From Alistipes sp. (GTDB taxonomy: Bacteria > Bacillota > Clostridia > Oscillospirales > Ruminococcaceae): a stretch of DNA of 64,000 nt. Positions 23,245 through 41,563 of this stretch are shown piece after piece. Numbering within the stretch: the stretch's first letter is position 1; every line of letters begins with the position of its first letter. Both the position numbers and the translations under genes were made by a program. Under the pieces are notes generated by a model. The model was given only the letters and a program-made list of their open reading frames with translations, was not told where the DNA came from and did no database searches. Location of the stretch: contig JAMPAJ010000001.1 in assembly GCA_023667265.1 (NCBI GenBank), positions 1,417,151-1,481,150 of the forward strand, given 5' to 3'.

Positions 23245-24444
23245 ATGATTATCTTAGTTGTAAATGCAGGAAGTTCATCTCTTAAATATCAGCTCATCGA
23301 CATGGCTGATGAAAGCGTTATTGCAAAGGGAAACTGCGACCGTATCGGAATCGACGGTCATATCGCCCATAAGACTGCCGATGGAAGAGAGCTGAATCAG
23401 GACTGCACATTTCCCACTCACACAGAGGCTTTCATGAAGCTGGTCGAGACTCTTACAACAGGCGACGCAAAGGTCATCGACAGCATGGACGCTATTTCCG
23501 CTGTAGGTCACCGTATCGTACAGGGTGCTGATATTTTTGACAAGTCCGTTCTCGTAACTGACGAGATCATCGACAAGATCGACGAGCTTCGCGAGCTTGC
23601 TCCCGTACATAATCACGCTCACGCACTGGCTCTTCGTGCCTGCAAGAGCGTTATCCCGGCAAATGTTCCCCAAGTCGCAGTTTTCGATACTGCTTTCCAC
23701 CAGACTATGCCTCCGAAGGCTTATATGTTCGGTCTGCCCTACGAGGATTACGAGACGCTTCACGTAAGAAAGTACGGCTTCCACGGTACGTCCCACAGAT
23801 TCGTTTCTGCTGCTCTGGCTGAGGCTATGGGCAAGGACATCAAGGATCTGAAGATCGTTTCCTGCCACCTCGGCAACGGCTCTTCGATCACTGCTGTTGA
23901 CGGCGGAAAGTCCGTTGATACATCTATGGGCTTCACTCCCCTGGACGGCGTTGTTATGGGCACTCGTTCCGGAGCTGTTGACCCCTCTGCCGTTACATTC
24001 GTAGCCGACAAGCACGGCTTCTCTCCTGCGCAGATGAGCGATTACATGAACAAGAAGTCAGGATTCCTCGGAGTTTCCGGCGTTGGCTCTGACAACCGCG
24101 ACATCACCGACGCAGCTCAGCACGGCAACGAGAGAGCGAAGCTTGTTTCCGATATGCTGGTTTACGAGATCAAGAAGTACATCGGTTCCTACGCAGCCGC
24201 TATGAACGGTCTTGACGCTGTTCTCTTCACAGGCGGTATCGGTGAGAACGCATACGACGTTCGTGCCGCTGTCTGCGAGAACATGGAGTTCTTCGGCATC
24301 AAGCTCGACAAGGAAGTAAACGACGGTCTCCGCGGAAAACTCACAAAGATCTCTGCTGACGATTCAAAGGTTCAGGTATGGGTAGTTCCTACAAACGAGG
24401 AGCTTCTCATCGCAAGAGATACTCTTGCTCTTATTTCCGAATAA
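23245..24444 (+). CDS. ackA: Acetate kinase
   Basis: Interconverts acetyl phosphate + ADP and acetate + ATP, a main ATP-yielding step in acetogenic sugar fermentation. The 399 residues match the family. Visible signatures are the N-terminal LVVNAGSSSLKYQL, the central HHFHG-like KYGFHGTSHRFV, HLGNGSSITA and GVVMGTRSG, and C-terminal FTGGIGENA. It is followed by an intrinsic terminator and is divergent from tmcAL. Confidence 0.98.
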   Translation: MIILVVNAGSSSLKYQLIDMADESVIAKGNCDRIGIDGHIAHKTADGRELNQDCTFPTHTEAFMKLVETLTTGDAKVIDSMDAISAVGHRIVQGADIFDKSVLVTDEIIDKIDELRELAPVHNHAHALALRACKSVIPANVPQVAVFDTAFHQTMPPKAYMFGLPYEDYETLHVRKYGFHGTSHRFVSAALAEAMGKDIKDLKIVSCHLGNGSSITAVDGGKSVDTSMGFTPLDGVVMGTRSGAVDPSAVTFVADKHGFSPAQMSDYMNKKSGFLGVSGVGSDNRDITDAAQHGNERAKLVSDMLVYEIKKYIGSYAAAMNGLDAVLFTGGIGENAYDVRAAVCENMEFFGIKLDKEVNDGLRGKLTKISADDSKVQVWVVPTNEELLIARDTLALISE

Positions 24445-24464
24445 GAAAAATATACAGAAGAATT

Positions 24465-24497
24465 TTAAGGGACTGCCGGACAGTCCCTTAATTTCTC
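24465..24497 (+). terminator. ackA terminator
   Basis: An 11-bp perfect stem TTAAGGGACTG/CAGTCCCTTAA with loop CCGGA and a moderate T-rich tail. It leaves only about 18 bp before the TerB ATG, so that operon may depend partly on readthrough. Confidence 0.85.
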
Positions 24498-24515
24498 TCC
24501 GGGAGGAGGCTAAGC

Positions 24516-26021
24516 ATGGATAAACTGACTCTTGAAGCCCTTATCGACCAGCTGCTCGGCAAGCCGGATAATACTGACAGCCATGTCTATTCCGACGAGC
24601 CTGTAATCAGGCGTGCGTCAGAGATAAAAAAGCCGCCGGTGCCTGCAAAGATCAGGGAGATGAGAAGAATAGCGCATACACGCGAGGCGCACTGGAAAAC
24701 GTCTGCCTGGCTTTTCTACCAGCAGGGCACGTTTATGGCGAACTATACTGACGATTACGAATACGAACGCTTTTTTACCATGTTTATGCCCACCTACTCC
24801 GATCTTGACACGGAGCAGCTCCGGGGATATTTCACATGGCGGACAAGGTTCAGAAAGGGCGAATTATTTCCTGCTCCAACGCCTTTTTTGCAGCTTTATG
24901 CTCAGGAAATAATAAATCAGATCGGTATTTCCTCCGCCGAAGAGGGCTTTGAACGGCTTTTGCAGATTCAGCAGGAATATATGAATTATCCGTCAGTTCT
25001 GAACAAATGGATATCCGATTATGCCATATATTATCAGCTTCCGGAAGAATATCTGAACCGATGCAGAGAATTTGACAGCGACAAATATTTAATATCCATA
25101 ATGAATTGTGCCGAAACCGACGCCGATTCACTGTACGAAGCCATTTGCGCTCTGTCAGGCTATAATATTGGAAACTCAAAGTTCTGCAAGGAATATCCCC
25201 TTGAGTACAAGGAAGCGATCGTCCGCATAATACGCAGCCTGTCGCTGTTTCAGGAGAAGCATCGTAAAAAGAGCCTGTGCGAGACCCTTTTCGGCAAGAA
25301 AATCGAGATCTTCCAGAAAATGTTTGACTATGCGGTTTTCTATGAAAAAAACAAACGCCCCAGGTTTACCGTCACGGTAAATTCCGTCCGTTCATATCAA
25401 TTGAACGGAAACACTTTCTGTATCTGCAATAAGTTTGAAAACGTCAAAAGCAGCAAAAGGCTGTCTCTTATCGCCAAAGAAACGGACAGGCTTCTCCGTG
25501 AAGCCTTTAATTTCAAATCTAAGCTCAAAGCCCAGGAAATACCGAAAATTACGCTGAATCTCATCGAAAATGAGATCAACGGGATCGTTTCGGAGAGAGA
25601 ACGCGCTGCCACAGAAAAAAAGACCCGGGAAATAGCTATCGACATTTCCAAGCTTTCAAAGATACGCTCCGACGCCGATATTGTCCGCGACAGGCTTATC
25701 GTCGAGGAGGAAGAGGATATTTTCCCCGAGCCGGCTGCCGAAATTTATGAAGAGGCTCCGGAGGAAACCGAGACTGAGACAAACATCTGTCTGCTTACTG
25801 CTGAGGAAAACGGCTTTTTGCAGACTCTTCTGTCAGGTTCGGATATCAAAGCGTATTCCGCAGGAAAGGGCGTCCTGACATCTGTTTTAGCCGACGGGAT
25901 AAACGAAAAGCTTTTTGATATTTTCGCCGACAATGTAATTGATTTCGACGGCGACTGTCCTGTCATTTTAGAGGACTATTCTGACGATGTAAAGAAAATG
26001 TATGAGAACGGAGAATTATGA
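24516..26021 (+). CDS. TerB-N/TerB-C domain protein
   Basis: A 501-residue cytoplasmic protein and first gene of a coupled three-gene module. Residues about 58-240 match the TerB-N pattern (HWKTSAWLFYQQGTFMANY, PTYSDLDTEQLRGYFTWR). The region from about 415 (TAEENGFLQTLL to the end) resembles TerB-C, with a charged linker between. These domains were described in tellurite-resistance-linked and DNA-processing gene neighbourhoods; a catalytic role is not known. GGAGGAGG precedes the ATG. The stop overlaps the next gene by 4 nt. Probably the scaffold or sensor of the module. Confidence 0.8.
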   Translation: MDKLTLEALIDQLLGKPDNTDSHVYSDEPVIRRASEIKKPPVPAKIREMRRIAHTREAHWKTSAWLFYQQGTFMANYTDDYEYERFFTMFMPTYSDLDTEQLRGYFTWRTRFRKGELFPAPTPFLQLYAQEIINQIGISSAEEGFERLLQIQQEYMNYPSVLNKWISDYAIYYQLPEEYLNRCREFDSDKYLISIMNCAETDADSLYEAICALSGYNIGNSKFCKEYPLEYKEAIVRIIRSLSLFQEKHRKKSLCETLFGKKIEIFQKMFDYAVFYEKNKRPRFTVTVNSVRSYQLNGNTFCICNKFENVKSSKRLSLIAKETDRLLREAFNFKSKLKAQEIPKITLNLIENEINGIVSERERAATEKKTREIAIDISKLSKIRSDADIVRDRLIVEEEEDIFPEPAAEIYEEAPEETETETNICLLTAEENGFLQTLLSGSDIKAYSAGKGVLTSVLADGINEKLFDIFADNVIDFDGDCPVILEDYSDDVKKMYENGEL

Positions 26022-27355
26022 TGCCTGAGAATAAACAAGTTAAGATACCTAAAAGAATAGCCTCGGCTGTTGTAAATTCGCTGAAAGGCGGCGTTGTGCC
26101 CAGGATCGGTCTGCCATATATTACCGTCGGCAGAAAAGCCGAAATAGACGCTCTGCTCCACGACGTTGACATTATCCAGGAGGGCGGAGCTGCTTTCCGG
26201 TTCATCGTCGGACAGTACGGAAGCGGAAAAAGCTTTCTCCTGCAAACAATACGCAATCACGTTATGGACAGAAATTTTGTCGTCGTGGACGCCGATCTGT
26301 CTCCGGAGCGCCGTCTCCAGGGAACAAAGGGTCAGGGACTTGCCGCATATAAGGAGCTTATCCGCAATATGTCCACAAAAACACGTCCCGACGGCGGTGC
26401 GCTGACTCTCATTCTCGACAGGTGGATAAGCAGCGTCCAGGCGGAAACAGCTGCCGAAACCGACCCTGCCTCGCCGAACTTTGAAAAAGCTGTGGAGCGG
26501 AAAATTTACCAGGTCATTTCCGCCCTCAACGAAATGGTGCACGGCTTCGATTTCGCAAAGCTTCTGACCCTCTATTACCGTGCAAGCATGAACGGCGACG
26601 ACGAGACAAAGGCTAAGGCGGTAAAATGGTTCAGAGGAGAATATGCCACGAAAACCGAGGCAAAGGCTGAACTGGGCGTAAATATCATCATTACCGACGA
26701 CGACTGGTATGAATATCTGAAAATTTTCGCTGTTTTCCTGAAACGCGCAGGCTACAGCGGACTGCTGATACTCATTGACGAGCTGGTCAACATCTATAAA
26801 ATTCCCAACGCCATTACACGGCAGTATAATTATGAGAAGATCCTCACCATGTACAACGATACTCTCCAGGGAAAAGCCGGATATATGGGCATTATCATGG
26901 GCGGCACGCCTCAGTGTATCGAGGACACCCGCCGGGGCGTCTACAGCTACGAGGCTCTCCGCTCACGTCTGACCGAAGGACGCATAGCGCGTGAAAACAG
27001 AGAGGGTATACGCGATATGCTCGCGCCTGTAATACGCCTTGTGCCTCTTACTAACGAGGAGCTTGTTGTACTTACGGAAAAGCTTGCTGAAATCCACGCT
27101 GGACTTTTCGGATATGAAAGAAGGATCAGCCAGGAGGAAAATATCGGCTTTATCCGCGCGGAGCTCGGCAGAGTCGGCGCAGACAGCCATATCACGCCAC
27201 GAGAGGTAATACGCGACTATATCGAGCTGCTTGATATGATATACCAGAACCCCGGCATAAGCATCAGCGAGCTTATCACTCCGGAGGCTGTAGGCTCTCT
27301 GTCTCCGGAATCAGCCGGAAGCGGCGACGACTTATTTGCGGAGTTTGAAATATGA
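26018..27355 (+). CDS. BrxD-like P-loop ATPase (DUF2791)
   Basis: A 445-residue ATPase resembling BrxD of type 2 BREX systems. Walker A is GQYGSGKS at 65-72 and Walker B LLILIDE at 249-255. The family stretches AYKELIRNMSTKTRP and GGTPQCIEDTRRGVYSYEALRSRL are present. It is coupled by 4-nt overlaps to the TerB-type gene and the helicase. Inference: it couples ATP hydrolysis to loading or regulating the helicase on DNA. No pglX methylase, pglZ or brxC is present in the window, so this is not a full BREX locus. Confidence 0.8.
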   Translation: MMPENKQVKIPKRIASAVVNSLKGGVVPRIGLPYITVGRKAEIDALLHDVDIIQEGGAAFRFIVGQYGSGKSFLLQTIRNHVMDRNFVVVDADLSPERRLQGTKGQGLAAYKELIRNMSTKTRPDGGALTLILDRWISSVQAETAAETDPASPNFEKAVERKIYQVISALNEMVHGFDFAKLLTLYYRASMNGDDETKAKAVKWFRGEYATKTEAKAELGVNIIITDDDWYEYLKIFAVFLKRAGYSGLLILIDELVNIYKIPNAITRQYNYEKILTMYNDTLQGKAGYMGIIMGGTPQCIEDTRRGVYSYEALRSRLTEGRIARENREGIRDMLAPVIRLVPLTNEELVVLTEKLAEIHAGLFGYERRISQEENIGFIRAELGRVGADSHITPREVIRDYIELLDMIYQNPGISISELITPEAVGSLSPESAGSGDDLFAEFEI

Positions 27356-29610
27356 ACACATTTGACCGCTACGCGCCGTTTATCCAGGACTTCATCTACC
27401 AGAACAACTGGGAATCCCTAAGAGGCGTTCAGGCTGCGGCTGCCGACGTTATCTTCAACTCCGATGATAACCTGCTGCTTTCCGCGTCGACAGCGTCGGG
27501 AAAGACCGAGGCGGCATTTTTTCCCATTCTGACGCTTTTTTCCGAAGATCCGCCGGGATCGGTGGGAGCGTTGTACATCGGGCCGCTTAAAGCCCTGATA
27601 AACGACCAGTTCTACCGACTTACGGAGCTGTGCGAGGAGGCGGATATCCCCGTCTGGCACTGGCACGGCGACGCAGCACAATCCCACAAAAGCCGTATGC
27701 TGAAAAATCCCTCCGGTATCCTACAGATCACTCCGGAATCCCTTGAGGCTATGCTGCTTCGGAAAAATGCGCTTATTCCGAAGCTTTTCGGAGATCTGCG
27801 GTTTGTCGTTATTGACGAGGTGCACTCTCTTATGCGCGGAGACCGGGGCGGACAGACGCTTTGCCTTATAGAGCGGCTGTCACGGCTTGCAGGCGTAAAT
27901 CCGCGGAGAATAGGACTTTCAGCCACTATCGGCGACCTTGAAGCCACAGGACGTTTTCTCTCCGCAGGCACGGGCAGGAGAACTGCAATTCCCAAAATCA
28001 CCGAAAAAGGCGCAAAATGGCGGCTTTCCATGGAGCATTTTTACATTTCACAGGAAAATAACCCGGAAGAAAGCGACAGCGGCAGTCCTGCGCTGCCTGT
28101 TCTGGACGAAAAAACCGATACCGCTCCTAAAAATGCAGATGCCGGGCTTGGATATATTTTTGAGCACACAAGAGGCAAAAAATGCCTCGTTTTTGTCAAT
28201 TCCCGCGAGGACTGCGAGGCGGTGACGACTACCCTGCGCTCCTACTGCGAGGCTAATAACGAGCCGGACAGATTTCTTATCCACCATGGCAACCTTTCTG
28301 CATCATACCGCGAAACTGCCGAGGATATAATGAAAGACGAAAGCATCAACATGACGACCTGCACAACCGCTACTCTCGAGCTGGGGATCGACATCGGCAG
28401 GCTGGAACGCGCATTTCAGATAGACGCGCCATTCACGGTCTCCTCATTCCTCCAGCGTATGGGTCGGACAGGCCGCCGGGAGCTTCCCCCGGAAATGTGG
28501 TTCGTCATAAGGGAGGAGCTTCCGGAGCCCCGTTCTATGCTGCCGGAGACTATTCCCTGGAAGCTGCTGCAAGCCATTGCCCTCATACAGATCTATCTGG
28601 AAGAACGCTGGGTCGAGCCGCCAAGGCTGGACAGACTGCCGTATTCCCTGCTATACCACCAGACTATGAGCACCCTTGCGTCCTGCGGAGAAATGACGCC
28701 GGCTGAGCTGGCGAAAAGGGTTCTTACTCTCAATATCTTCCACCGTATCTCCCAGGAGGATCTCAGGATACTGCTGCGTCATCTTCTTGAGACCGACCAT
28801 ATCCAGCGGACGGACGAGGGCGGAATTATCGTTGGAATAACCGGAGAAAGAGTTATCAACAGCTTTAAATTCTACGCCGTTTTCCAGGAGAACGACGAGT
28901 ACACAGTCCGCAGCGAATCCCAGGAGCTGGGCACGATCGTAAGTCCGCCGCCTGTCGGAGAGAAGATCGCCATTGCAGGTCACGTATGGCTTGTCGAGGA
29001 GATAGACCACAAGCGGCATCTGGTCTACTGCACGCTTATTAAGGGAAAAGTTCCTGCATATTTCGGGGACTGCCCGGGGGATATCAATACCAGGATCTTA
29101 CGTCGTATGAGGCAGGTTCTCACAGAAAGCAGAAGCTATCCGTATCTTATGAAAAACGCCGTTCTGCGGCTGGAAAATGCCCGTAATTCGGCGCGCAGCT
29201 CCGGAGCTGCGGTCTCGCCGCTTATCTGCCTGGGCGGAAATATGTGGGTTCTCTTTCCCTGGCTCGGCACTTACGCATTTTTGGCAATGGAGCGTTTCTT
29301 AAAGCTGCGGTGCGGCGAAAGGCTCGGAATAAAGGGGCTCGACTCCGCGCGTCCGTACTATATCAACTTCAAAATGAAGGCTGCTCCGGCGGAATTTTTC
29401 GCAGTTCTGGCAGATGAAGCGGCTAAGGAATTTGACCCTCTTGCACTTGTATATCCCGGTGAAGTGCCGGTTTTTGAGAAATACGACCAGTATCTGCCGG
29501 AGGAGCTTATAAAAAAAGGCTTCGCTTACGGCGTGCTGGACATTGCAGGAATGAAGGCCCGGGTATATGAGATGTGCCGGGAATTTGAAGAGGGCGCGGT
29601 TTTGTCCTGA
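27352..29610 (+). CDS. BrxHI/Lhr-like DEAD/DEAH helicase
   Basis: A 752-residue superfamily 2 helicase. Motif I is ASTASGKTEAAF (about 45-56), motif II VIDEVHSL, motif III GLSATIGD, and motif VI QRMGRTGRR. A C-terminal Lhr-like extension follows. Size and partner gene fit BrxHI of BREX type 2 neighbourhoods. The gene overlaps the ATPase by 4 nt and ends in a strong terminator, closing the module. Translocation on DNA is expected by family; the target is unknown. Confidence 0.85.
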   Translation: MNTFDRYAPFIQDFIYQNNWESLRGVQAAAADVIFNSDDNLLLSASTASGKTEAAFFPILTLFSEDPPGSVGALYIGPLKALINDQFYRLTELCEEADIPVWHWHGDAAQSHKSRMLKNPSGILQITPESLEAMLLRKNALIPKLFGDLRFVVIDEVHSLMRGDRGGQTLCLIERLSRLAGVNPRRIGLSATIGDLEATGRFLSAGTGRRTAIPKITEKGAKWRLSMEHFYISQENNPEESDSGSPALPVLDEKTDTAPKNADAGLGYIFEHTRGKKCLVFVNSREDCEAVTTTLRSYCEANNEPDRFLIHHGNLSASYRETAEDIMKDESINMTTCTTATLELGIDIGRLERAFQIDAPFTVSSFLQRMGRTGRRELPPEMWFVIREELPEPRSMLPETIPWKLLQAIALIQIYLEERWVEPPRLDRLPYSLLYHQTMSTLASCGEMTPAELAKRVLTLNIFHRISQEDLRILLRHLLETDHIQRTDEGGIIVGITGERVINSFKFYAVFQENDEYTVRSESQELGTIVSPPPVGEKIAIAGHVWLVEEIDHKRHLVYCTLIKGKVPAYFGDCPGDINTRILRRMRQVLTESRSYPYLMKNAVLRLENARNSARSSGAAVSPLICLGGNMWVLFPWLGTYAFLAMERFLKLRCGERLGIKGLDSARPYYINFKMKAAPAEFFAVLADEAAKEFDPLALVYPGEVPVFEKYDQYLPEELIKKGFAYGVLDIAGMKARVYEMCREFEEGAVLS

Positions 29611-29629
29611 ATTTTGAGGATGGATATAA

Positions 29630-29664
29630 AAAATAGACAAGGAAAAATTATCCTTGTCTATTTT
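29630..29664. terminator. Bidirectional terminator
   Basis: A 14-bp perfect stem AAAATAGACAAGGA/TCCTTGTCTATTTT with a 7-nt loop, T-rich on both sides. It ends the TerB-ATPase-helicase operon (plus) and can also serve dpaB (minus). Confidence 0.92.
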
Positions 29665-29726
29665 TATAAGTTGTTTATTTTAAATTATAAGCTTTTGATC
29701 ACAGAATATAAGTCCGGAACAGACTA

Positions 29727-30320
29727 TCAATCATAAATGATAGGTCGAAGCTGGACACCCTCCAGCGCCGCCGCGGCAGCCTCTGGTATCATCTCAAACT
29801 GCGCAACAAGAGACGCCGGCTTTTTCTCGATATCGTCCTGGAGCATCGGCACAAAATAATAATTCTTGCGGTTGAAAAGCTCTCCAATATTTTTTGCCGA
29901 GCCAAGAAGAGAATCGTTGCTTGCTATGGCGAGAACGACCGGCTTTCCGCTGCGCAAATGTGATTTTACAGCCATTGTTGCAGCAGTATCGGTTATACCG
30001 TTAGCCAGCTTCGCAGCCGTATTTGAGGTACACGGCGCAACGACTAAAATATCGGTCATATTCTTAGGCCCGATAGGCTCTGCGCCGTTTATGTCGGTTA
30101 TGACTCTGCTGCCGCTCAGCTCCTCCAGCTTGCACAGGTTTTCAACATCTGTGCCGAAACGTGTTGATAACCCTGCCGCGGTCTCCGACATAACAGGCAC
30201 GATCTCCGCGCCCAGCTCACGAAGCCGCTGAACCTGCCGGAAGCAGCGGTCGAATGTGCAGAACGAACCGGTCATAACAAAGCCTATGCGTTTTCCTTTC
30301 AGACTGTCAAGCTCAGGCAT
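29727..30320 (-). CDS. dpaB: Dipicolinate synthase subunit B
   Basis: Flavoprotein subunit (SpoVFB) of the enzyme that makes dipicolinic acid in the mother cell for spore heat resistance. The protein begins KRIGFVMTGSFCTFD and has VVAPCTSNTAAKLANGITDTA, the flavoprotein-fold signature of the family. An in-frame TTG upstream overlaps the ribosome site; AAAGGAG at 8-nt spacing selects ATG 30320, giving 197 residues. The start overlaps dpaA by 8 nt. Confidence 0.95.
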   Translation of the reverse strand: MPELDSLKGKRIGFVMTGSFCTFDRCFRQVQRLRELGAEIVPVMSETAAGLSTRFGTDVENLCKLEELSGSRVITDINGAEPIGPKNMTDILVVAPCTSNTAAKLANGITDTAATMAVKSHLRSGKPVVLAIASNDSLLGSAKNIGELFNRKNYYFVPMLQDDIEKKPASLVAQFEMIPEAAAAALEGVQLRPIIYD

Positions 30321-31176
30321 GGCAGACACTCCTTTCTTCAAGAATGTTTATTATCGCCTCTCCGACATATTTTCCGGCAGTCACCGGCGCGGATTTTCCG
30401 GGGATACCCAGTGCCCAGAGCACCTTTTTTCCCTGTATAGAGGCGGCGTTCATGTCAAAGCCTCCGGGACGTGAGGCGAGATCAATAAAAAGTGCGTCCC
30501 AGGAGAACAGCTCCAGCCTTTTTTCGTCAAATATCAACTCGGGAACAGTGTTGAAAACAAGCCCGAAGCTGCCGTCCATATCCTTGGTGTATACGGAGCT
30601 TATTCCGAGAATACGTGATTTTGCAGCTCCGGAGGAATTGCGGACGGCGGCTGTCACATCAGCGCCGAAGCCTTTCAGTATCTCCGCAAGAGCTGTTCCG
30701 ATACGCCCAAGACCGACTATAAGCACAGGCAGACCGTTAAGCGTCACCGGAAGATTCTCCAGGGCAAGCTTCACAGCGCCTTCCGCTGTCGGGATAGCGT
30801 TGTTCAGCGCAAGCTCCTCCCGGCTCATGTAATCGACTATGTCGCTGCCTGGGAAATAATCATTAAGGCGGCTGTCGGCTCTGCCGGTAAATATGATCGC
30901 TTCTTTTTTCAGCATTGGTATTATTTCCCCGATCATCAGAGGATTTCTGCTGCATGGGGTATTTACGCCTCCCTCGTCGTTAAAAGGCGGAACCGGCAGA
31001 ACGAGCGCATCGTATATTTCCCGCTGCTCCGGAGCGGCAATGCCGAAATGATGCTTATACGGCAGAAAATCACTGTCAAAGCCAAGAATATCGCTTTTAT
31101 ATTTTTCGGCAAGCTTATCTGCGCAGTATATCTGCCGAAGATCTCCTCCGGCTGTAAGTATTCTCAATTTATCCAT
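30313..31176 (-). CDS. dpaA: Dipicolinate synthase subunit A
   Basis: Dehydrogenase-like subunit (SpoVFA) of dipicolinate synthase. The 287-residue protein has the family N-terminus with LPVPPFNDEGGVNTP and a Rossmann motif LIVGLGRIGTALAEIL, followed by IDLASRPGGFD. It is coupled to dpaB. The minus-strand upstream sequence contains CATATAATG, resembling a sigma-K/E -10, which would fit mother-cell expression, though no clear -35 is visible. Confidence 0.95.
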   Translation of the reverse strand: MDKLRILTAGGDLRQIYCADKLAEKYKSDILGFDSDFLPYKHHFGIAAPEQREIYDALVLPVPPFNDEGGVNTPCSRNPLMIGEIIPMLKKEAIIFTGRADSRLNDYFPGSDIVDYMSREELALNNAIPTAEGAVKLALENLPVTLNGLPVLIVGLGRIGTALAEILKGFGADVTAAVRNSSGAAKSRILGISSVYTKDMDGSFGLVFNTVPELIFDEKRLELFSWDALFIDLASRPGGFDMNAASIQGKKVLWALGIPGKSAPVTAGKYVGEAIINILEERSVCHA

Positions 31177-31253
31177 AGTTGACTCCTATCTGTTTTTTCT
31201 TCATTATATGGCGGAATCAAAAAAATGGCTACTATTTTATATATTGAAATTTA

Positions 31254-31282
31254 TTGACTTTTTTACGGAATAGTGGTAGAAT
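31254..31282 (+). promoter_or_regulatory. GH74 gene promoter
   Basis: TTGACT (31254-31259), 17 nt, then TAGAAT (31277-31282). The leader to the ATG is about 65 nt, AT-rich, with a TTAACTAATTGTTAA inverted repeat at its centre that could be an operator. Confidence 0.8.
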
Positions 31283-31356
31283 AGTATCAGAGAATATTAT
31301 TTAACTAATTGTTAAATAAATATAAATTGATTAAGAAAACAGGAGGAAAATTGCAA

Positions 31357-34008
31357 ATGAATTTACTGAAAAAGACCACTGCCGGCGTTCTTGCCCTCTG
31401 CCTCGGCGCTGTTTGTGCGGCACAGACAAACAGTCTACCGATGCTGAACCAGGCTGCGGCGGCAAACATTGAGGACTCTATGAAATGGGAGCCTGTCAAA
31501 ATAGGCGGCGCAGGCTTCGTTTCCGGCATTGTTACAGGTCAGAAGGAAATGTATCTTCGTACAGACGTAGGCGGCGCGTACAAATGGAACTATGAGACCT
31601 CGGAATGGGAGCAGCTTCTCGGATTTATCAACGAGGCTGACCGCGGACTTCTCTCCGTAAAGGGTATCGCTGTCGACCCCACTGACGACGACACAGCCTA
31701 CTTCCTCTGCGGCTGCGCTTACTTCTCCGATGCGAGAACGGTTATTTTCAAGACGACCGACGGCGGTAAGACCTTTACTCAGTCCGACGTTACCGAGCAT
31801 ATACAGATACACGGCAACGGCGACGGACGTCAGTGTATCGAGCCTATCGCTATCGACCCCGACGACCCGGACACTATTTATGCCGGAGGCGACGTTACTG
31901 CCGGCAAATCCGCGCTTATCAAGTCAACAGACGGCGGTAAGACCTGGAATCCCGTTATAGGCTACGATGATCTGGGACTCTTCTCCGGCGAGTTGAAATA
32001 TCCTACATGGACAGAGCATATGGTAAGATGCACTGAGCCTTCCAAGGAATACAACGCTCAGAACGGTATCGGCTGTATCTATATTTACGACGGTAAGGTT
32101 TATGTCGGTACTTCCGTAACAGGACAGGCAAATATCCATGTTGCAGATGTCAAGGACGACAAATTTGAGGTTCTCACAGAAGATCTTCCGACAGCAAATT
32201 ACCCCTGCTCTATCACTGACGACGGAAACGGCAATATCTTCTTCACCTACATCGCAGGTCTTGCATTTTCCGGAAGCTCCGGCGGTGCGTATAAGTATAA
32301 CACAAAGACAGGCGAAGTGACCTGCTTTGACGAGCTGAAAAATGCTATAGGAATGATCGAGGCTGACAAGGACGACCCCAATAAGCTGCTGGCGAGAACC
32401 TGCGGTCTGTGGTCAGATCAGTGGTACGAGGAAAAGTGGACTGAAAACTCTATCGCCTGGGGCGACTACTTCTTCCGTTCGACAGACGGCGGCGAGACAT
32501 GGCAGAATATTACTCCCGGTCAGGGCGAAACCATATATGACGCCGACGGTTCGCACAAGGTTTTCGTTTCGCTTCCTATGGATACCAACGGCTATGACTG
32601 GATATACGGCAAGGCTTGCCACTGGGGCAGCGGTATCGTCATTGACCCGAGAGATCCCGAAAGAATACTTATGACTTCCGGTAACGGCGTATTTGCCTGC
32701 GACAACGTCTGGGACGAATTAGGCGTTCAGTTCTACTTCCAGCCCGACGGTGTTGAGGAGGTAGTTGCTCTCGACTTCACCAGCGTTCCCGGAGGTGCAA
32801 ATTACTCCGCTATCGGCGACTACGACGGCTATATCCACACCGACATCAACGAGATCGGCGAGCAGTACAGCCCTAATATCGGTTCGACATCAGCTATCGC
32901 ATACTGTCCCCAGAATCCGGACGTTATGGTTCGCTGCTCCGAGCACGAAAAAGGCGCTCTCTACAGCATGGACGCCGGAAAGACCTGGACTGAAATGGCA
33001 AATCCCGGCTGTCAGGGCGGTAAGGCTGCAATTGCTAAGATCGACGACGACACCTACAGAATTTTCCGTTCGGACAACGGTGGAAAAGTAGTTTACTCTG
33101 ATAACTTCGGCGGTTCATGGAACGACTGCTCCGGAATCCCGTCACAGTACGGCTCAAAGACTACATTTGTAATGTCCGAACCCAGCGATGCAAATATTGT
33201 TTACGCATACGCGACTTACTATAATTCCTCATGGGGATATTCCAAGCCTGCGCCCACCGAAGAGGACGCACAGTATATATTCTGCGTCAGCACAGACGGA
33301 GGAAAGACGTTCACCTCGACAAATGTTTGTATGTACGACCAGTGCGATACGGCAGGACGGCTTGCTTATCTCGGCGAGGGCGAGCTTGCACTGGGCGCGG
33401 GCTGGTACGGTATGTACCGCGCATCTGTAAAGGACGGCAAGGCAACGATCACTAAACTGGACAGCGTGTACTACTGCAAAACGGCTGGCTACGGCGCACC
33501 GGAAAAGGCTGGCGGACTGAATACGCTTTATATTTACGGCAGGCCCTCTGAAAGCGATGCCGAGGGTATATACCGCTCTACAGACGGCGGCGAGACCTGG
33601 GACTGCATCAACACCAATATGCTCTACGGAGGCACAGGAAACGGAAACTTCCTTGTCGGCGATATGAATGAGTTCGGTAGGGTATATATGTCAACGGTCG
33701 GCGCAGGTATTGTCTGCGGTCATCTTGACGATGGTTCGGAGCCTGCTACAAAGCCTACAACACAGCCCAGCTCAGGCAAAGAGGAGATCTTATACGGAGA
33801 TGCGAATTGTGACGGCATTGTTGATATTTCAGATGCAACTATAATTCTCCAGTATATCGGAAACAGCGACAAGTATAAGCTTTCAGCCGCCGGAGCTGTA
33901 AATGCTGACTGCTTCGATCCCGGCAGCGGAATCACTGCACTTGATGCTCTGGCAGTTCAGAAGCTTGACGCGAAGGTGCTTTCAAAGCTTCCGGAAATGT
34001 CTGAATAA
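31357..34008 (+). CDS. GH74-type xyloglucanase with dockerin
   Basis: Secreted glycoside hydrolase predicted to cleave xyloglucan or related beta-glucans. The 883-residue protein has a signal peptide (KKTTAGVLALCLGAVCAAQ) and a tandem beta-propeller with several STDGGKTW-type repeats. Likely catalytic aspartates are in YLRTDVGGAYKW and VIDPRDPERILMTSGNGVF. After a short Thr/Ser linker, a C-terminal dockerin has DANCDGIVDISDAT and a more divergent second repeat. AGGAGG 10 nt upstream supports the ATG at 31357; a longer frame adds a Lys-rich tail before the signal. Confidence 0.93.
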   Translation: MNLLKKTTAGVLALCLGAVCAAQTNSLPMLNQAAAANIEDSMKWEPVKIGGAGFVSGIVTGQKEMYLRTDVGGAYKWNYETSEWEQLLGFINEADRGLLSVKGIAVDPTDDDTAYFLCGCAYFSDARTVIFKTTDGGKTFTQSDVTEHIQIHGNGDGRQCIEPIAIDPDDPDTIYAGGDVTAGKSALIKSTDGGKTWNPVIGYDDLGLFSGELKYPTWTEHMVRCTEPSKEYNAQNGIGCIYIYDGKVYVGTSVTGQANIHVADVKDDKFEVLTEDLPTANYPCSITDDGNGNIFFTYIAGLAFSGSSGGAYKYNTKTGEVTCFDELKNAIGMIEADKDDPNKLLARTCGLWSDQWYEEKWTENSIAWGDYFFRSTDGGETWQNITPGQGETIYDADGSHKVFVSLPMDTNGYDWIYGKACHWGSGIVIDPRDPERILMTSGNGVFACDNVWDELGVQFYFQPDGVEEVVALDFTSVPGGANYSAIGDYDGYIHTDINEIGEQYSPNIGSTSAIAYCPQNPDVMVRCSEHEKGALYSMDAGKTWTEMANPGCQGGKAAIAKIDDDTYRIFRSDNGGKVVYSDNFGGSWNDCSGIPSQYGSKTTFVMSEPSDANIVYAYATYYNSSWGYSKPAPTEEDAQYIFCVSTDGGKTFTSTNVCMYDQCDTAGRLAYLGEGELALGAGWYGMYRASVKDGKATITKLDSVYYCKTAGYGAPEKAGGLNTLYIYGRPSESDAEGIYRSTDGGETWDCINTNMLYGGTGNGNFLVGDMNEFGRVYMSTVGAGIVCGHLDDGSEPATKPTTQPSSGKEEILYGDANCDGIVDISDATIILQYIGNSDKYKLSAAGAVNADCFDPGSGITALDALAVQKLDAKVLSKLPEMSE

Positions 34009-34036
34009 ACACTGAATATTGAGTCAAACGACTAAA

Positions 34037-34080
34037 AAATCGGGCTCTCCAGGAAAAATTAAACCTGGAAAGCCCGATTT
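34037..34080 (+). terminator. GH74 terminator
   Basis: A stem of 17 nt per arm (AAATCGGGCT-C-TCCAGG with its complement, one mismatch) with a 10-nt loop. The following tail is only moderately T-rich. Confidence 0.8.
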
Positions 34081-34112
34081 ACTCTATATAATGCTTTTCT
34101 ACTGCAAACCGG

Positions 34113-34157
34113 AAAATTCAGGAGACGCTCTCTCTTGCAGAGCGTCCCCTGAATTTT
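34113..34157. terminator. Second convergent terminator
   Basis: Stem AAAATTCAGG-GACGCTCT with its complement, loop CTCTTGC, followed by TTTTTAATTT on the plus strand. It backs up the GH74 terminator and may stop minus-strand transcription from the P-type ATPase gene. Confidence 0.8.
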
Positions 34158-34186
34158 TAATTTATATCTCTTGCAATGAGATTTTT

Positions 34187-34270
34187 CGTTTATAAAGCAC
34201 GCGGAATATTTTCAGTAGCTGTTAAATCAGCGAGTCTTGCTCGCGGCTACGTGAATTGCCAGCGGGGGCT
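34187..34270. repeat. Decayed copy of repeat family 1
   Basis: The segment starts CACGCGGAATATTTT and ends AATTGCCAGCGGGGGCTC followed by ACCGC, matching both conserved ends of the repeats at 4141 and 22947. The middle is diverged and the TTGCAA/TATAAT promoter end is missing. A small CCAAAGG/CCTTTGG hairpin follows near 34283. No gene lies in 34009-34324. Confidence 0.5.
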
Positions 34271-34324
34271 CACCGCCTCTGCCAAAGGAGCACCGCCCCT
34301 TTGGAATCCCAATGTTAATTATTC

Positions 34325-36715
34325 TCACTGATAATCTTTATTTTTCACCGTAAAGAAATTACGTATACCCTCGATCAGTATCGTCAGGTAACGAAGCGTC
34401 GGCTCGGCAATGATCGCGAAATTCACGCAAAGAAGAATACACTGTACCGACATTCCCGACACGCTGAAAAATCCGCCAAGGAATACCATGCTCAGAGTCA
34501 GCGAAATACCGCATATAGCCCAGATCCCCCATTTTATCGTGTTCATAGGCTTGCTGATGCGGAATACTATCATCATTCCTACCACGCTGAGGAGAATTGT
34601 GGACGCAGTTGAAATATCCGCCTGACTGGAATTGAAAATGCTGCCGAAGAATATCATAGCCGCCACTATTATTGCATCGGTCAGTCCAGCCGGAAGAGCC
34701 TTCAGCATAATATTGGTCATAAACTTGCCTTTTATAAGCTCCTTATTCGGTATCTGAGAAAGACAAAGTCCCGGCAAACCTATGGTAAACACGCTTACAA
34801 GCGAAATGTGCGCCGGCTTCAGAGGATACGTTATGCCGAATATCAGCGTTATAACGGACATGAGGAGTGAAAATATGTTCTTCACAAGGAAAAGACTTCC
34901 CGAACGCTCCAGGTTGTTGACGACCTTTCTTCCCTCCATTACAACGTTTGGCATCTTGGAAAAATCCGATTCCAGCAGAACAAGCTGTGAAGCCTGTGCC
35001 GCCGCGTCGCTTCCGGAAGCCATCGCAACAGAGCAGTCAGCCTCTTTCAAGGCAAGAACATCGTTTACGCCGTCTCCTGTCATGGCAACGGTTCTTCCGG
35101 CTTTTTTCATAGCACGGACAAATTTCCGCTTCTGCTCGGGAGTTACGCGTCCAAAAACCGTATAATGCAGCACAGCCGCTTCTATCGCGGCGTCGCTTTC
35201 AAGCGTAGACGCGTCAATATATTTTTCAGCGCCAGAGATACCTGCGCGCCGCGCCACCTCGGAAACAGTAAGAGGATTGTCGCCGGAAATAACCTTGATC
35301 TCCACGCCCTGCTCTGCAAAAAATTTAAATGTATCCGGTGCGCTCCGGCGTATGGGATTTGACAGAATAACAAAAGCCAGCGGCTCGGTTTTCCCGGTAA
35401 GACCTTTTCCGTCGGGTACGCCGTCGTATCTGCCGAATACAAGCACGCGGCAGCCTTGCCGGCTATAAGAGGATATGAGCTTTTCATGATCCGCAGCGGA
35501 ATCGCCGAGAAGAAATTCCGGCGCGCCCATAACATATGCTCCGCTTTCAAGGGTGGTGCTGCTGTATTTGAACTCCGAGGAAAAGCCGGTCAAAGCCACA
35601 ACGCGCGCTCCCGTCGGATTGTGAAAATAACTTTTTACAGCAAGCATAGTTGCGTTGTCAGCCGACTGTGCCGATGCAAAATCGCTAATAAGCGAAATCA
35701 CAGTCTCCTCCGACAATCCGCCGACCGTCTCAAAGCCGGAAACGCTCATTTTTCCTTCGGTTATAGTTCCGGTTTTGTCCACACACAGCGTGTCCACACG
35801 GGCAAGAGTCTCGATGCACTTCATATCGTGAACGAGAACCTTTCGTGTTGCAAGGCGGAGCGTGCTTATCGCAAGGGTAGTGCTGGCGAGGAGGAAAAGT
35901 CCCTCGGGGATCATTCCGATAATTGCAGCGACCATGCCCTGGATACTGCTGCTTACGCCGTTGTGCTCGAAGAAATGCTGCTGACAGTAGAGGGCAATTC
36001 CTATCGGGATAATGATTATTCCCGTCATTTTGACTATCCTGTTCAGCGAGCGTATCATCTCCGACTGCTCGCCCTTTTTCGTTTTTTTAGCCTGAATAGT
36101 AAGCCGGGAGATGTAGGAATCAGCTCCGACCTTTTGCAGCCTTGCACGGCACGAGCCGGAAACGATAAAGCTGCCCGACATAAGGCTGTCTCCGGGATTT
36201 TTGATTATTTCGTCAGCCTCGCCTGTCAGCAGGGATTCATTAACAGACACAATGCCGTCTATGACCTCGGCATCCGCGCTTATCTGATCGCCTGCGCGGA
36301 AAATGGCAATATCGTCAAGAACCACATCCTTTGAGGGCACAGCGATCTCGCAGCCGTCCCTGATAACCTTTGTGGAAGGCTGGTTCATGACCGAAAGCTT
36401 GTCCAGAACGCGCTTTGAACGGAGCTCCTGGATAATACCAATGAGAGTGTTCGCCACGATGATCGGCATAAATGTAATATCACGGTATGTTCCGGCGTAA
36501 ATTATAAGTCCGCCAAGGATGAGGAAAATGAAGTTGAAGTAGGTAAATGTATTGTCCCGGACGATCTCCCCGACTGATTTTGAGGGCGGCTTCGGGGGAC
36601 GGTTGTCAAGTCCGGCAGCCTTGCGCTGGTGAACCTGCTCCGCCGTCAGACCAAGCTCCGGCGAAGCGTTCACACGCGGCGGAGACGGCAATTTTTGTAT
36701 GGCAATTTTATTCAT
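34325..36715 (-). CDS. Cation-transporting P-type ATPase (CtpE-like)
   Basis: A 796-residue membrane pump. The phosphorylation motif is CVDKTGTITEG, the actuator motif LLTGEADE, and the hinge MTGDGVNDVLALKEAD. The membrane motif PEGL (GMIPEGLFLL) and about ten hydrophobic segments resemble the CtpE group, implicated in Ca2+ transport in mycobacteria. The ion cannot be fixed from sequence alone. An in-frame TTG precedes the ATG at 36715. It lies between the two dockerin enzymes but on the opposite strand. Confidence 0.88.
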   Translation of the reverse strand: MNKIAIQKLPSPPRVNASPELGLTAEQVHQRKAAGLDNRPPKPPSKSVGEIVRDNTFTYFNFIFLILGGLIIYAGTYRDITFMPIIVANTLIGIIQELRSKRVLDKLSVMNQPSTKVIRDGCEIAVPSKDVVLDDIAIFRAGDQISADAEVIDGIVSVNESLLTGEADEIIKNPGDSLMSGSFIVSGSCRARLQKVGADSYISRLTIQAKKTKKGEQSEMIRSLNRIVKMTGIIIIPIGIALYCQQHFFEHNGVSSSIQGMVAAIIGMIPEGLFLLASTTLAISTLRLATRKVLVHDMKCIETLARVDTLCVDKTGTITEGKMSVSGFETVGGLSEETVISLISDFASAQSADNATMLAVKSYFHNPTGARVVALTGFSSEFKYSSTTLESGAYVMGAPEFLLGDSAADHEKLISSYSRQGCRVLVFGRYDGVPDGKGLTGKTEPLAFVILSNPIRRSAPDTFKFFAEQGVEIKVISGDNPLTVSEVARRAGISGAEKYIDASTLESDAAIEAAVLHYTVFGRVTPEQKRKFVRAMKKAGRTVAMTGDGVNDVLALKEADCSVAMASGSDAAAQASQLVLLESDFSKMPNVVMEGRKVVNNLERSGSLFLVKNIFSLLMSVITLIFGITYPLKPAHISLVSVFTIGLPGLCLSQIPNKELIKGKFMTNIMLKALPAGLTDAIIVAAMIFFGSIFNSSQADISTASTILLSVVGMMIVFRISKPMNTIKWGIWAICGISLTLSMVFLGGFFSVSGMSVQCILLCVNFAIIAEPTLRYLTILIEGIRNFFTVKNKDYQ

Positions 36716-36749
36716 CAAACAAACTCGCTTTCAAAGTTACTATAAATAT

Positions 36750-37203: not shown

Positions 37204-37243
37204 AAAACAGGAACGGAAATACTATTGAAAAGAGTTGAGATCT

Positions 37244-39592
37244 ATGAATAAGTTCAGAAAATTATCGGCACGTATCACCTCGCTGGTTTCCTCAGCAGTT
37301 ATGGCTGTTGGCGCAGTAAGCGTGTCCCCGGCGGCAAATTTGACCGTAAACGCAGCCGGAGGCGGTGACGACTACGCAAAGCTGCTCCAGTATTCGCTCT
37401 ACTTCTACGATGCAAACTACTGCGGTCCGGACACCGGAGAGCGCTCGCGTCTCACCTGGCGTGACGACTGCCACACAAGCGACGGCGTGACCGGCGGCTT
37501 TCACGATGCCGGAGACCACGTAAAATTTGGACTTCCTGCCGGATATACCGCCTCACAGCTGGGATGGAGCTACTACGAATTTTCCGATGCCTACAATGAG
37601 ACCGGTCAGGCAAGCCATCTCCAGGAGATCACCGACCATTTCGCTGAATTTTTTAAGGCTTCCGCCACTCTAAGCGGCGATACCGTTACAAATTTCGTAT
37701 ATCAGGTAGGCGACGGCAATGCAGATCATGCCTACTGGCGCGCTCCAGAAGTTGATACCGATCTCAGCACACGTACAGTTCTGAGCACCTCCTCCGGCGC
37801 AAGCGATATTGCTGCTGAATATGCCGCAGCCCTCGCGCTCAATTACATCAATTTCAAGAATGAGGACGACCTGAAATACGCGAAGGCTCTCTACGCATAT
37901 TCCGTAAAAACAAACACGATCACCGGAGCTCCCGGCTTCTACGAATCCACCAGCCTTAACGACGACCAGGCATGGGCTGCCGGATGGCTCTATCTCGCCA
38001 CAAAGGATAGCTACTACAAAGAGCAGTGTACAGCAAAGCGTCCCGAGGTCTATTGGTTCAACAGCTGGGATAACAACGCTCTTTCGGCTAACTGCGTTTA
38101 CGGCTATGTCACCGGAGACTGGAGCAAGGCTGATAACTATCTGAAAGGACAGTGCCGCAGCTCCGACTACCTCTTCGCAGACGCCTGGGGAAGTGCGCGT
38201 TACAACGCTCAGATCCAGTTCTGCGCGCTTGCTGTTTCACGTCATACAAACTCCAATTACAACGCCTGGGCTAAGGGACAGATGGACTACCTCATCGGAA
38301 ACAAGGGCGTAGGCTCTGCATCACCTGTATGCTTTGTTGTTGGATTCGCGGACAACGCCGCTAAATATCCGCACCACAGAGGCGCGTCAGGCTTCAGCAG
38401 CAGTTCGCAGTTCAACGCGTCCAACGGCTCCTACAGCAGCAGCGGACACGTTCTCCCCGGCGCTCTTGTGGGCGGTCCTACAGACGCTAACGGTTCATAT
38501 GTTGACTCCGTTCAGGATTACCAGGCAAACGAAGTTGCCCTCGACTACAACGCCGGTCTTGTCGGCGCGGCTGCCGGTCTCTATGCGGCTTACCATACCG
38601 GCTCTGTCGTTCCTGTTTCGGAAATTCCCGGCGTCAAGTCAGACGTTAACGACTCCGAGCCTGTCATAACAACGCCCGCGGTCACAACTCCTTCCGGCTC
38701 GGACGATCCCATTGTTACTACGGTTGCTCCTGTTGTAGTTACGCCAGGTGTGCGGAAGCTTAACGTCAACACAGAACACTCCCTGGGCGGAAGCGACCAG
38801 TTTGAAAGATGGTACTGGTTTGAATTCGGACTTGGCGCAAATGAATATGTCAACAAAGTAGAGGTTGAACTCGAAGCTTCAAGCGGCAGTATTGGTCAGT
38901 GGCAGGGTGCGTTCGCTGTAAGCACATACGATTCAGACTGGGTTCAGACCGATTCCATGAGCGGCAATTTCGGCAGCACCGGAACTGTTGCCTGGGAGAT
39001 CCCCGAGAAAACCAGTCGGAATATCAATTATGACTCGTCGATGCTCAACTTCGGAACATGGTGGTGTGAGTCTCAGAATTTCAAGGTTAAATCTGTAACT
39101 CTTTACACTACCGCAGAGGAAGAGGTGACAACGACTGCGCCTCCGGCAACTGCCAGACCCACGACAACTACTACCACTACAACCAAGCCTACGACAACTA
39201 CCACAACTACGACTACAACCACAACTACTACGACTACAACCACAACTACTACGACCACAACCACCACAACTACTACGACGACAACTACTACCACAACTAA
39301 GCCTACAACGACAGCTACAACTGTCACCACGACCGTAACTACTAAACCTGTTACTTCGGCAACCAAGCCTGTTACTACTGCTAAGCCTGTAACAACGGCT
39401 GCTGCTCCGGAAACAGTCGAAGGCGACGTCAACAGCGACGGAGTTGTCGATATCGCCGACATCGTTGCCATGAGCAGACACCTGCTCGGACACGGCGGCA
39501 TTGACCAGGAAGCGGCTGACCTCGACGGCAGCGGCAGAGTCGATGTTTACGATCTCGTCCTCATGAGAAGACTTCTCATCTCGAAACTGTAA
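37244..39592 (+). CDS. GH9 cellulase with C-terminal module and dockerin
   Basis: Secreted family-9 endoglucanase predicted to attach to a cellulosome. Using ATG 37244 (MNKFRK; an upstream TTG is less likely) gives 782 residues. The GH9 domain has FHDAGDHVKFGLP (base aspartates), YPHHRGASG and NEVALDYNAGLVG, with the catalytic Glu. A beta-sandwich module (about 500-620) that looks like a carbohydrate-binding domain follows. A poly-Thr linker then leads to a dockerin, DVNSDGVVDIADIV and DLDGSGRVDVYDLV. A terminator follows. Confidence 0.95.
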   Translation: MNKFRKLSARITSLVSSAVMAVGAVSVSPAANLTVNAAGGGDDYAKLLQYSLYFYDANYCGPDTGERSRLTWRDDCHTSDGVTGGFHDAGDHVKFGLPAGYTASQLGWSYYEFSDAYNETGQASHLQEITDHFAEFFKASATLSGDTVTNFVYQVGDGNADHAYWRAPEVDTDLSTRTVLSTSSGASDIAAEYAAALALNYINFKNEDDLKYAKALYAYSVKTNTITGAPGFYESTSLNDDQAWAAGWLYLATKDSYYKEQCTAKRPEVYWFNSWDNNALSANCVYGYVTGDWSKADNYLKGQCRSSDYLFADAWGSARYNAQIQFCALAVSRHTNSNYNAWAKGQMDYLIGNKGVGSASPVCFVVGFADNAAKYPHHRGASGFSSSSQFNASNGSYSSSGHVLPGALVGGPTDANGSYVDSVQDYQANEVALDYNAGLVGAAAGLYAAYHTGSVVPVSEIPGVKSDVNDSEPVITTPAVTTPSGSDDPIVTTVAPVVVTPGVRKLNVNTEHSLGGSDQFERWYWFEFGLGANEYVNKVEVELEASSGSIGQWQGAFAVSTYDSDWVQTDSMSGNFGSTGTVAWEIPEKTSRNINYDSSMLNFGTWWCESQNFKVKSVTLYTTAEEEVTTTAPPATARPTTTTTTTTKPTTTTTTTTTTTTTTTTTTTTTTTTTTTTTTTTTTTTKPTTTATTVTTTVTTKPVTSATKPVTTAKPVTTAAAPETVEGDVNSDGVVDIADIVAMSRHLLGHGGIDQEAADLDGSGRVDVYDLVLMRRLLISKL
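39136..39332 (+). repeat. ACN-triplet repeat coding poly-Thr linker
   Basis: About 65 codons are nearly all Thr, using mixed ACA/ACT/ACC/ACG, with a few Lys-Pro breaks. Synonymous mixing shows selection for the amino acid rather than simple DNA slippage alone. The antisense strand reads as a spurious Val-rich ORF. Confidence 0.9.
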
Positions 39593-39633: not shown

Positions 39634-39679
39634 CTTGACATAAATAATGAATTGTGATAAAATTAAATAGGTGATGTAT

Positions 39680-40261
39680 ATGAAAATTATTTTAGCCTCG
39701 GCTTCACCGAGACGGCGCGAGCTGATGAAGCTTATCACAGAGAATTTTACCGCTGTTTCCGTAGATGCGGACGAGACGCTGCCCGAGGATCTGGGCGCGG
39801 CAGGAATTGAAGGGGCTGCGGAATATCTGGCTGATATTAAAGCTGCAAAAGCGCACGAGCTTTATCCCGGCGATCTGGTCATCGGCTGCGATACGACCGT
39901 AGTGTGCGGAGAAAAAATTCTCGGCAAGCCCAAAGACAAGTCTCAGGCGCGGGAGTATCTGCATATGCTTTCCGACTGCCGTCACACGGTATATACCGGC
40001 TGCTGTATACGATACGGAAAGGAAAAGTATTCGTTTTCCGTCGGCACGGATGTTTTTTTCAACAGTCTCACCGACGAGGAGATCGAGACCTATATCTCCA
40101 CCGACGAGCCTTACGATAAAGCCGGCGGATACGGCATACAGAGCAGAGGCGCGCTTTTTATCAGCATGATCTCCGGGGACTTTTACAACGTTGTAGGACT
40201 TCCCGTCTCAAAGCTGAATCAGGTTTTGAAAAAAATTATGAAGGAGAATGACCTAATATGA
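39680..40261 (+). CDS. maf: Maf-family nucleoside triphosphate pyrophosphatase
   Basis: Hydrolyses non-canonical or modified NTPs (dTTP/UTP/m5UTP class) to monophosphates. AGGTG 6 nt upstream selects ATG 39680 and gives 193 residues. It begins ILASASPRRRELMKLI and contains VSVDADE, CDTTVVCGEKILGKPKD and DKAGGYGIQSRGALFI, the Maf signature set. The stop overlaps the DUF1015 gene start by 4 nt. Confidence 0.95.
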   Translation: MKIILASASPRRRELMKLITENFTAVSVDADETLPEDLGAAGIEGAAEYLADIKAAKAHELYPGDLVIGCDTTVVCGEKILGKPKDKSQAREYLHMLSDCRHTVYTGCCIRYGKEKYSFSVGTDVFFNSLTDEEIETYISTDEPYDKAGGYGIQSRGALFISMISGDFYNVVGLPVSKLNQVLKKIMKENDLI

Positions 40262-41517: not shown

Positions 41518-41547
41518 GCAATACCGCACAAAGAATGTGCGGTGTTG
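41518..41547 (+). repeat. Solo end hairpin of foldback element
   Basis: CAATACCGCACA pairs with TGTGCGGTGTTG across a 5-nt loop, right after the DUF1015 stop. Its sequence GCAATACCGCACAAAG matches the left terminal repeat of the elements at 4416 and 57871. It may be an internally deleted remnant that now acts as an intergenic hairpin. Confidence 0.6.
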
Positions 41548-41563
41548 ATATTGGAGGGATAAT

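Follow-up and report, generated by a model that had tools for sequence, protein, structure and literature searches.

A probable Shango anti-phage operon (sngABC) whose SngA is without a recognised TerB domain, beside ackA in a relative of rumen Ruminococcus

The operon described here, sngABC, lies in a 64,000-nucleotide (nt) stretch (hereafter the window) of contig JAMPAJ010000001.1 (positions 1,417,151 to 1,481,150; assembly GCA_023667265.1, an Alistipes sp. placed by GTDB in the Ruminococcaceae), and is to be compared with the anti-phage system Shango. In Pseudomonas aeruginosa PA14 the Shango operon codes for a TerB-like protein together with an ATPase and a helicase; in strain PAO1 it lowers plating 10–100-fold for many, though not all, phages, and the system had previously been found in Escherichia coli by others (PMC10250203). 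Of two further papers, one lists TerB (PF05099) for Shango (PMC10952713) and the other assigns SngC to a defence clade of superfamily 2 (SF2) helicases that also includes BrxHI, DruE and DpdJ (PMC12278908). One survey of the rumen does not use the name "Shango" in the main text (PMC11834463), and no paper on the mechanism was found in the literature listings, which mostly do not cover subscription journals.

The trio of the window is a copy of this already named defence system (SngABC) in a relative of the rumen Ruminococcus and, judging from its sequence, it is very probably a Shango anti-phage operon (probability about 0.85). Homologues of SngA, SngB and SngC are adjacent in that order, all three are matched by the PADLOC Shango models over most of their length, and the P-loop of SngB and the SF2 motifs of SngC are intact. 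An initial annotation had treated the triplet as a TerB-N neighbourhood without an assigned function. This does not hold, since the trio corresponds to a named system for which plaque assays have been published and profile models exist, and that lead is closed. Its suggestion that phage defence was plausible gains from the match to Shango, which is anti-phage in P. aeruginosa (PMC10250203). The families that it had named agree with the profile matches obtained (TerB_N, TerB_C, BrxC_BrxD and DEAD/Helicase_C). What the present analysis adds is the asymmetric divergence of SngA, the TerB-less form of the Bacillota and the all-or-none retention of the set within the genus; these offer handles on the mechanism of Shango, which the literature searched does not settle.

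In type 2 bacteriophage exclusion (BREX) systems the gene order places BrxD and BrxHI side by side, and PglZ is a core BREX gene. The resemblance of the second and third genes to this pair, pointed out previously, is one of homology (PF10923 in SngB, DEAD and Helicase_C in SngC), and the trio could on this ground be read as a reduced BREX type 2 module, a BrxD-BrxHI remnant left once PglZ, BrxC and the methylase had disappeared. The PADLOC scores, however, differ by hundreds of bits: SngB scores 625.2 bits against the Shango model and 156.8 bits (2.4e-46) against BrxD, SngC 922.2 bits against Shango and 400.8 bits (2.6e-120) against BrxHI, and SngA matches no BREX model. With the NCBI BrxD equivalog SngB reaches 158.8 bits, below the cut-off of 350. 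The reported absence of PglZ extends to the whole genome (0 matches; completeness 96.3%), and neither a BREX methylase nor BrxC was found among the neighbouring genes scanned, no genome-wide search having been made for either. These scores, the missing PglZ and the joint travel of SngA, SngB and SngC within the genus make a BREX remnant highly improbable.

The first gene product is, as proposed, a TerB-N/TerB-C protein, in which Pfam recognises TerB_N (residues 34–232) and TerB_C (363–493) and no TerB (PF05099). The missing TerB is best read as a domain variant and not as a failure of Shango membership, because the PADLOC SngA model covers residues 21–496 of 501 and TerB is a listed feature of the system, not its definition. 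Nor is the window protein alone in this. Among the Pfam matches at the 0.01 level TerB is absent from all 55 SngA sequences of an alignment (A2) composed of the window protein and 54 of 63 prepared relatives (nine were dropped by hand; lengths 470–640 amino acids [aa]), every one of which has TerB_N and TerB_C. When eight longer or dropped sequences and one from Paenibacillus are included, 0 of 64 Bacillota SngA have TerB, where membership of the Bacillota was taken from the record titles and, in the case of the window, from its genus; two further SngA that were scanned come from the same genomes as A2 members. The domain is present in all four SngA from Pseudoalteromonas, Phaeobacter, Halocatena and Klebsiella, and at an expectation value (E) of 0.001 it is found nowhere in the window genome. 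The window SngA and the 810-aa Pseudoalteromonas protein are linked by profile only, their best BLASTP match (E 0.014) being unconvincing. It is possible that Bacillota SngA hold a diverged TerB beneath the reach of Pfam; TerB seems not to be needed for the Shango job in the Bacillota, whose SngA examined are without it.

The AlphaFold2 model of SngA (mean predicted local distance difference test score, pLDDT, 88.5) combines a large, helical TerB_N part with a C-terminal domain that is predicted to be shaped like a winged helix. No PDB or viral structure matched this fold at E 0.001 or better, which does not by itself establish a new fold, and by sequence the PDB gave a single weak match of 43 residues (0.0082) to a DUF1931 protein. 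A short viral protein, BFVD entry A0A8S5LZC6 (Siphoviridae sp. ctCsv15), named "TerB-C domain (Fragment)", ranked low among the viral fold matches, at E 1.7 with a template modelling score (TM) of 0.73 over its 43 residues; a phage-borne piece of TerB_C could bear on Shango or on counter-defence.

SngA diverges much faster than its partners. Mean pairwise identity is 41% for SngA, 77% for SngB and 79% for SngC among 54 loci, and SngA is less identical than both SngB and SngC in 1431 of 1431 pairs; the set derives from 125 loci, of which 71 were complete (SngA 450–560, SngB >400 and SngC 700–820 aa) and 54 remained after removal of near copies. Between the window and genome G018, a single pair, the ratio of nonsynonymous (dN) to synonymous (dS) substitution rates is 0.215 for sngA, 0.051 for sngB, 0.049 for sngC and 0.034 for ackA, and dN in sngA is about six times that of sngB and sngC. 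This pattern is one of weaker constraint or mixed selection and is not proof of positive selection. SngA has conserved islands (e.g. residues 102–115, 376–398 and 451–492) and 18 invariant columns in 55 sequences.

SngB is an ATPase of the BrxC/BrxD family with a P-loop (GQYGSGKS) at residues 65–72 and, by alignment, an acidic LIDE box at 252–255; no PDB match was found by sequence. SngC is an SF2 helicase in which the motifs TASGKT, DEVH, SAT and QRMGRTGRR are present, and their residues vary little or not at all across 26 sequences; its predicted model (pLDDT 59) is too poor for use. Pfam recognised no nuclease domain in SngA, SngB or SngC. The helicase also matches a ligase-associated DNA-damage helicase model, at 193.8 bits far below the cut-off of 850.

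The three open reading frames were confirmed on the plus strand (Table 1), with 4-nt overlaps at 26018–26021 (sngA/sngB) and 27352–27355 (sngB/sngC). The overlaps bear out the coupling of the triplet, with the qualification that the second is uncommon in the genus: of 40 loci only the window and G018 possess it, 20 have a gap of roughly 9–12 nt between sngB and sngC, and the remaining loci differ. The strong terminator proposed after the third gene is likewise supported by RNA folding (-18.3 kcal/mol, z -5.9; none of 200 shuffled sequences folded as well). A simple consensus terminator scan did not list this hairpin because its T run sits within the stem, and the scan as such returned 11 sites in comparison with 10.1 in shuffles, i.e. 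no enrichment. The hairpin just 5' of sngA has a z of -4.7. A sigma-70 scan listed no site in the 71 nt between the end of ackA and sngA.

Table 1. Coordinates of sngABC and of surrounding features in the window
Feature	Position	Strand	Basis and remarks
sngA	24516..26021	+	501 aa; PADLOC SngA 6.9e-70
sngB	26018..27355	+	445 aa; PADLOC SngB 1.7e-188, PF10923 1.7e-169
sngC	27352..29610	+	752 aa; PADLOC SngC 7.2e-278, DEAD + Helicase_C
Hairpin 3' of sngC	29629..29665	+	Inverted repeat and RNA fold; AT-rich, symmetric, probable terminator
ackA terminator hairpin	24465..24491	+	Consensus scan and RNA fold; between ackA and sngA
ackA (acetate kinase; housekeeping, left border)	23245..24444	+	TIGR00016 9e-150
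dpaB + dpaA (dipicolinate synthase subunits; right neighbours)	29727..31176	-	Pfam/NCBI profile matches, dpaB/dpaA-like
P-type ATPase gene (adjoins ackA in three relatives)	34325..36718	-	74–78% protein identity, G065/G049/G087
GH9 enzyme and BNR-repeat protein	31309–34008 and 37235–39592		Pfam

The distribution of the trio within the genus is all or none. With cut-offs of E 1e-15 for SngA, 0.001 for SngB and 1e-80 for SngC, the three proteins are found in 41, 42 and 42 of 100 genus genomes, which are the same genomes, and in the other 58 none of the three was matched. The only difference between the sets is G037, in which SngB begins 470 bases from the start of its contig and SngA may be missing through truncation. 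Fisher tests of the co-occurrence, which ignore relatedness, gave 2e-27 and 4e-29. With SngB in 42 of the 100 genomes the operon is, as had been supposed, accessory, and not a universal core locus. At the level of the family SngB occurs in 56 of 396 genomes (E 0.001; two weak matches and some fragments are included), the co-occurrence of SngA and SngC with it having been counted in the genus. In a control set of 14 named genomes SngC was matched in three archaea, SngB in Deinobacterium chartae alone and SngA in no genome, so that any one gene on its own carries less weight than the trio. When genomes are arranged by the identity of their AckA to that of the window, SngB is carried by 4 of 29 at ≥91%, 37 of 56 at 85–90% and 0 of 4 below this (AckA was matched in 90 genomes, of which 89 are counted; G095, with two fragments, was left out); Shango is therefore frequent in one section of the genus and seldom present in that of the window.

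In three genomes the genes lie on different contigs: SngA is apart from SngB-SngC in G028 (C6/C32), and SngC is apart from SngA-SngB in G032 (C8, C35) and G005 (C30, C135). In each of them SngB is in the interior of its contig, and other genes occupy the place expected of the partner. The splits may be assembly errors; taken as they are, they suggest that the triplet is kept as a set even where its genes are no longer neighbours, which is unusual for a compact defence operon. Some other copies look broken (sngA in two pieces in G046 C205, one in-frame stop in sngC of G031 C66), and G080 and G071 (L091, L093) have a small gene between sngB and sngC that clusters with an ArsC-family protein of L067.

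Outside the genus, relatives of SngB are found in 681 plasmid records at E 1e-40, of which 540 are predicted to be conjugative, and in no phage record at E 1e-10. The whole trio was present in five of the six plasmid loci that were opened; the sixth, a Klebsiella record, is without it.

The surroundings of ackA in the window were compared with those in 15 Shango-less relatives and in G018. In three of the 15 (G065, G049 and G087; AckA 94–95% identical) ackA stands directly beside the P-type ATPase gene, and relative to these the window has an extra stretch at 24445–34324 comprising sngABC, dpaBA and a BNR-repeat protein; the other 12 have different genes or a contig end beside ackA. Two of the three (G065 and G049) also carry the genes found at 39671–44741 of the window. 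Such an insertion had been placed between ackA and dpaAB. Its accessory position is upheld, and dpaAB as the far border of a standard site is not, as dpaAB itself lies in the absent stretch. The extra stretch may have been gained together or stepwise. DpaA is present in 88 of the 100 genus genomes; dpaBA adjoins sngABC here, and the three relatives with ackA next to the P-type ATPase gene have no DpaA at that place.

G018 has sngABC at the same position, on a contig which ends soon after sngC, and this suggests one gain before the window and G018 separated. In this pair the dS of the sng genes (0.82–1.18) exceeds that of ackA (0.53), and their histories may have been separate or exchanged. In most loci the surroundings to the left of ackA are conserved; those to its right vary. 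Among 40 SngB loci (the SngB-positive G006 and G037, with SngB at contig ends, are not included) ackA is on the fetched stretch in 12, in several orientations, and G005 has an ackA fragment at a contig edge. On the SngB tree, built from 38 of the 40 loci and an outgroup (L100 and L102 were left out, their SngB having been read short), the hand-set ackA label needs five changes, at least three of them forced, which may be gains plus losses. Two loci on short contigs (L092, L101) that are labelled "other" fall within the main ackA group and perhaps belong to it, and a second gene neighbourhood is common to twelve tree rows. The tree is compatible with several separate placements at ackA, without proving them.

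No direct repeats framing the insert were found, the window has no tRNA genes, and there is no integrase among the neighbouring genes scanned, a subset of those in the window. Ten further window proteins were compared with PADLOC and include no clear defence neighbour; only a ClpC-like ATPase matched (PDC-M37B and DolB), through its ATPase domain. For a possible defence hotspot beside ackA, the flanks of ackA in 40 loci, one of which (L059) holds Shango, yielded 106 cluster representatives. Of these, 79 were picked by hand for PADLOC, and at 1e-10 they matched nine families, of which mad3 was hit by two proteins and the others by one each (among them dCTPase, PDC-M42C, RT-Protease_XI, MzaA, PbeA and mad2). 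A 945-aa protein of G025 (L130:3165-6002) matches mad3 with its C-terminal part (4.2e-103), and six suspected proteins of L112 had no PADLOC match. Elsewhere in the window are a GH9 enzyme with a clear dockerin (Pfam) and a BNR-repeat protein, which we take to be GH74-like, with a dockerin match below the Pfam cut-off; the GH9 enzyme and the dockerins suggest a cellulosome producer.

Two other functions deserve consideration. The trio might be a domesticated DNA-maintenance complex whose main work is the processing or repair of cellular DNA, for instance at stalled forks, with defence as a side effect. Its carriage by two thirds of the genomes with AckA at 85–90% (37 of 56), a gene neighbourhood shared by 12 loci, the keeping of all three genes when they are split between contigs (G028, G032, G005), the strong purifying selection on sngB and sngC (dN/dS 0.05, one pair) and the sub-threshold match of SngC to the DNA-damage helicase would all agree with such a role. 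We nevertheless consider it unlikely: the trio is absent from 58 of 100 genus genomes and, where AckA identity is 91% or more, from 25 of 29 (the window genome being one of the 29), its relatives travel on conjugative plasmids, SngA diverges fast, and homologues were tested directly as anti-phage. Those published phage tests of Shango also speak against plasmid or transformation exclusion, in which the natural target would be incoming plasmid or conjugative DNA. This possibility, compatible with the identification as Shango, is favoured by the lack of a recognised nuclease domain and by the many plasmids that carry an SngB relative, and could exclude rivals with it, while no phage record does; we rate it as improbable as the former.

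For the operon as Shango, a tentative scheme can be put forward, in which the coupling of the genes, the intact motors, the joint retention in the genus and the accessory nature are observed and the division of roles is inferred. SngA, under changing selection, would recognise phage DNA as it invades or replicates, or else a phage protein on that DNA; SngB would serve as an ATP switch or loader; and SngC would be the SF2 translocase which, once placed on the DNA, stops phage replication or packaging. Because no nuclease domain was recognised, translocation or remodelling is favoured over cutting as the mode of interference. Somewhat more speculative still is the idea that the Bacillota SngA, reduced to TerB_N and a winged-helix-like TerB_C, serves a conserved SngB-SngC motor as a recogniser that can be exchanged or adapts fast, and alone sets the phage range. 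If so, TerB, which is taken as a hallmark of such systems, would be dispensable.

With the TerB proteins of the Ter stress response SngA has TerB_N and TerB_C in common, which flank TerB in the longer SngA; the window SngA differs from them in being without the TerB domain, as is its whole genome (E 0.001). BREX type 2 shares with the window a homologous ATPase and SF2 helicase as neighbours, whereas the window has an SngA partner, weaker BREX scores and no PglZ match in the genome. The likeness to the tested Shango of PA14 and of E. coli, the latter reportedly found by Millman et al. in 2022, is drawn through profiles and not through those sequences themselves. The window SngB is about 39–44% identical to proteobacterial and archaeal plasmid copies, and its SngA is short (501 aa) and devoid of the PF05099 domain carried by the four proteobacterial and archaeal SngA scanned. 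With Shango of P. aeruginosa PA14 and E. coli, the operon nevertheless shares the same three families in the same order, coupled and accessory.

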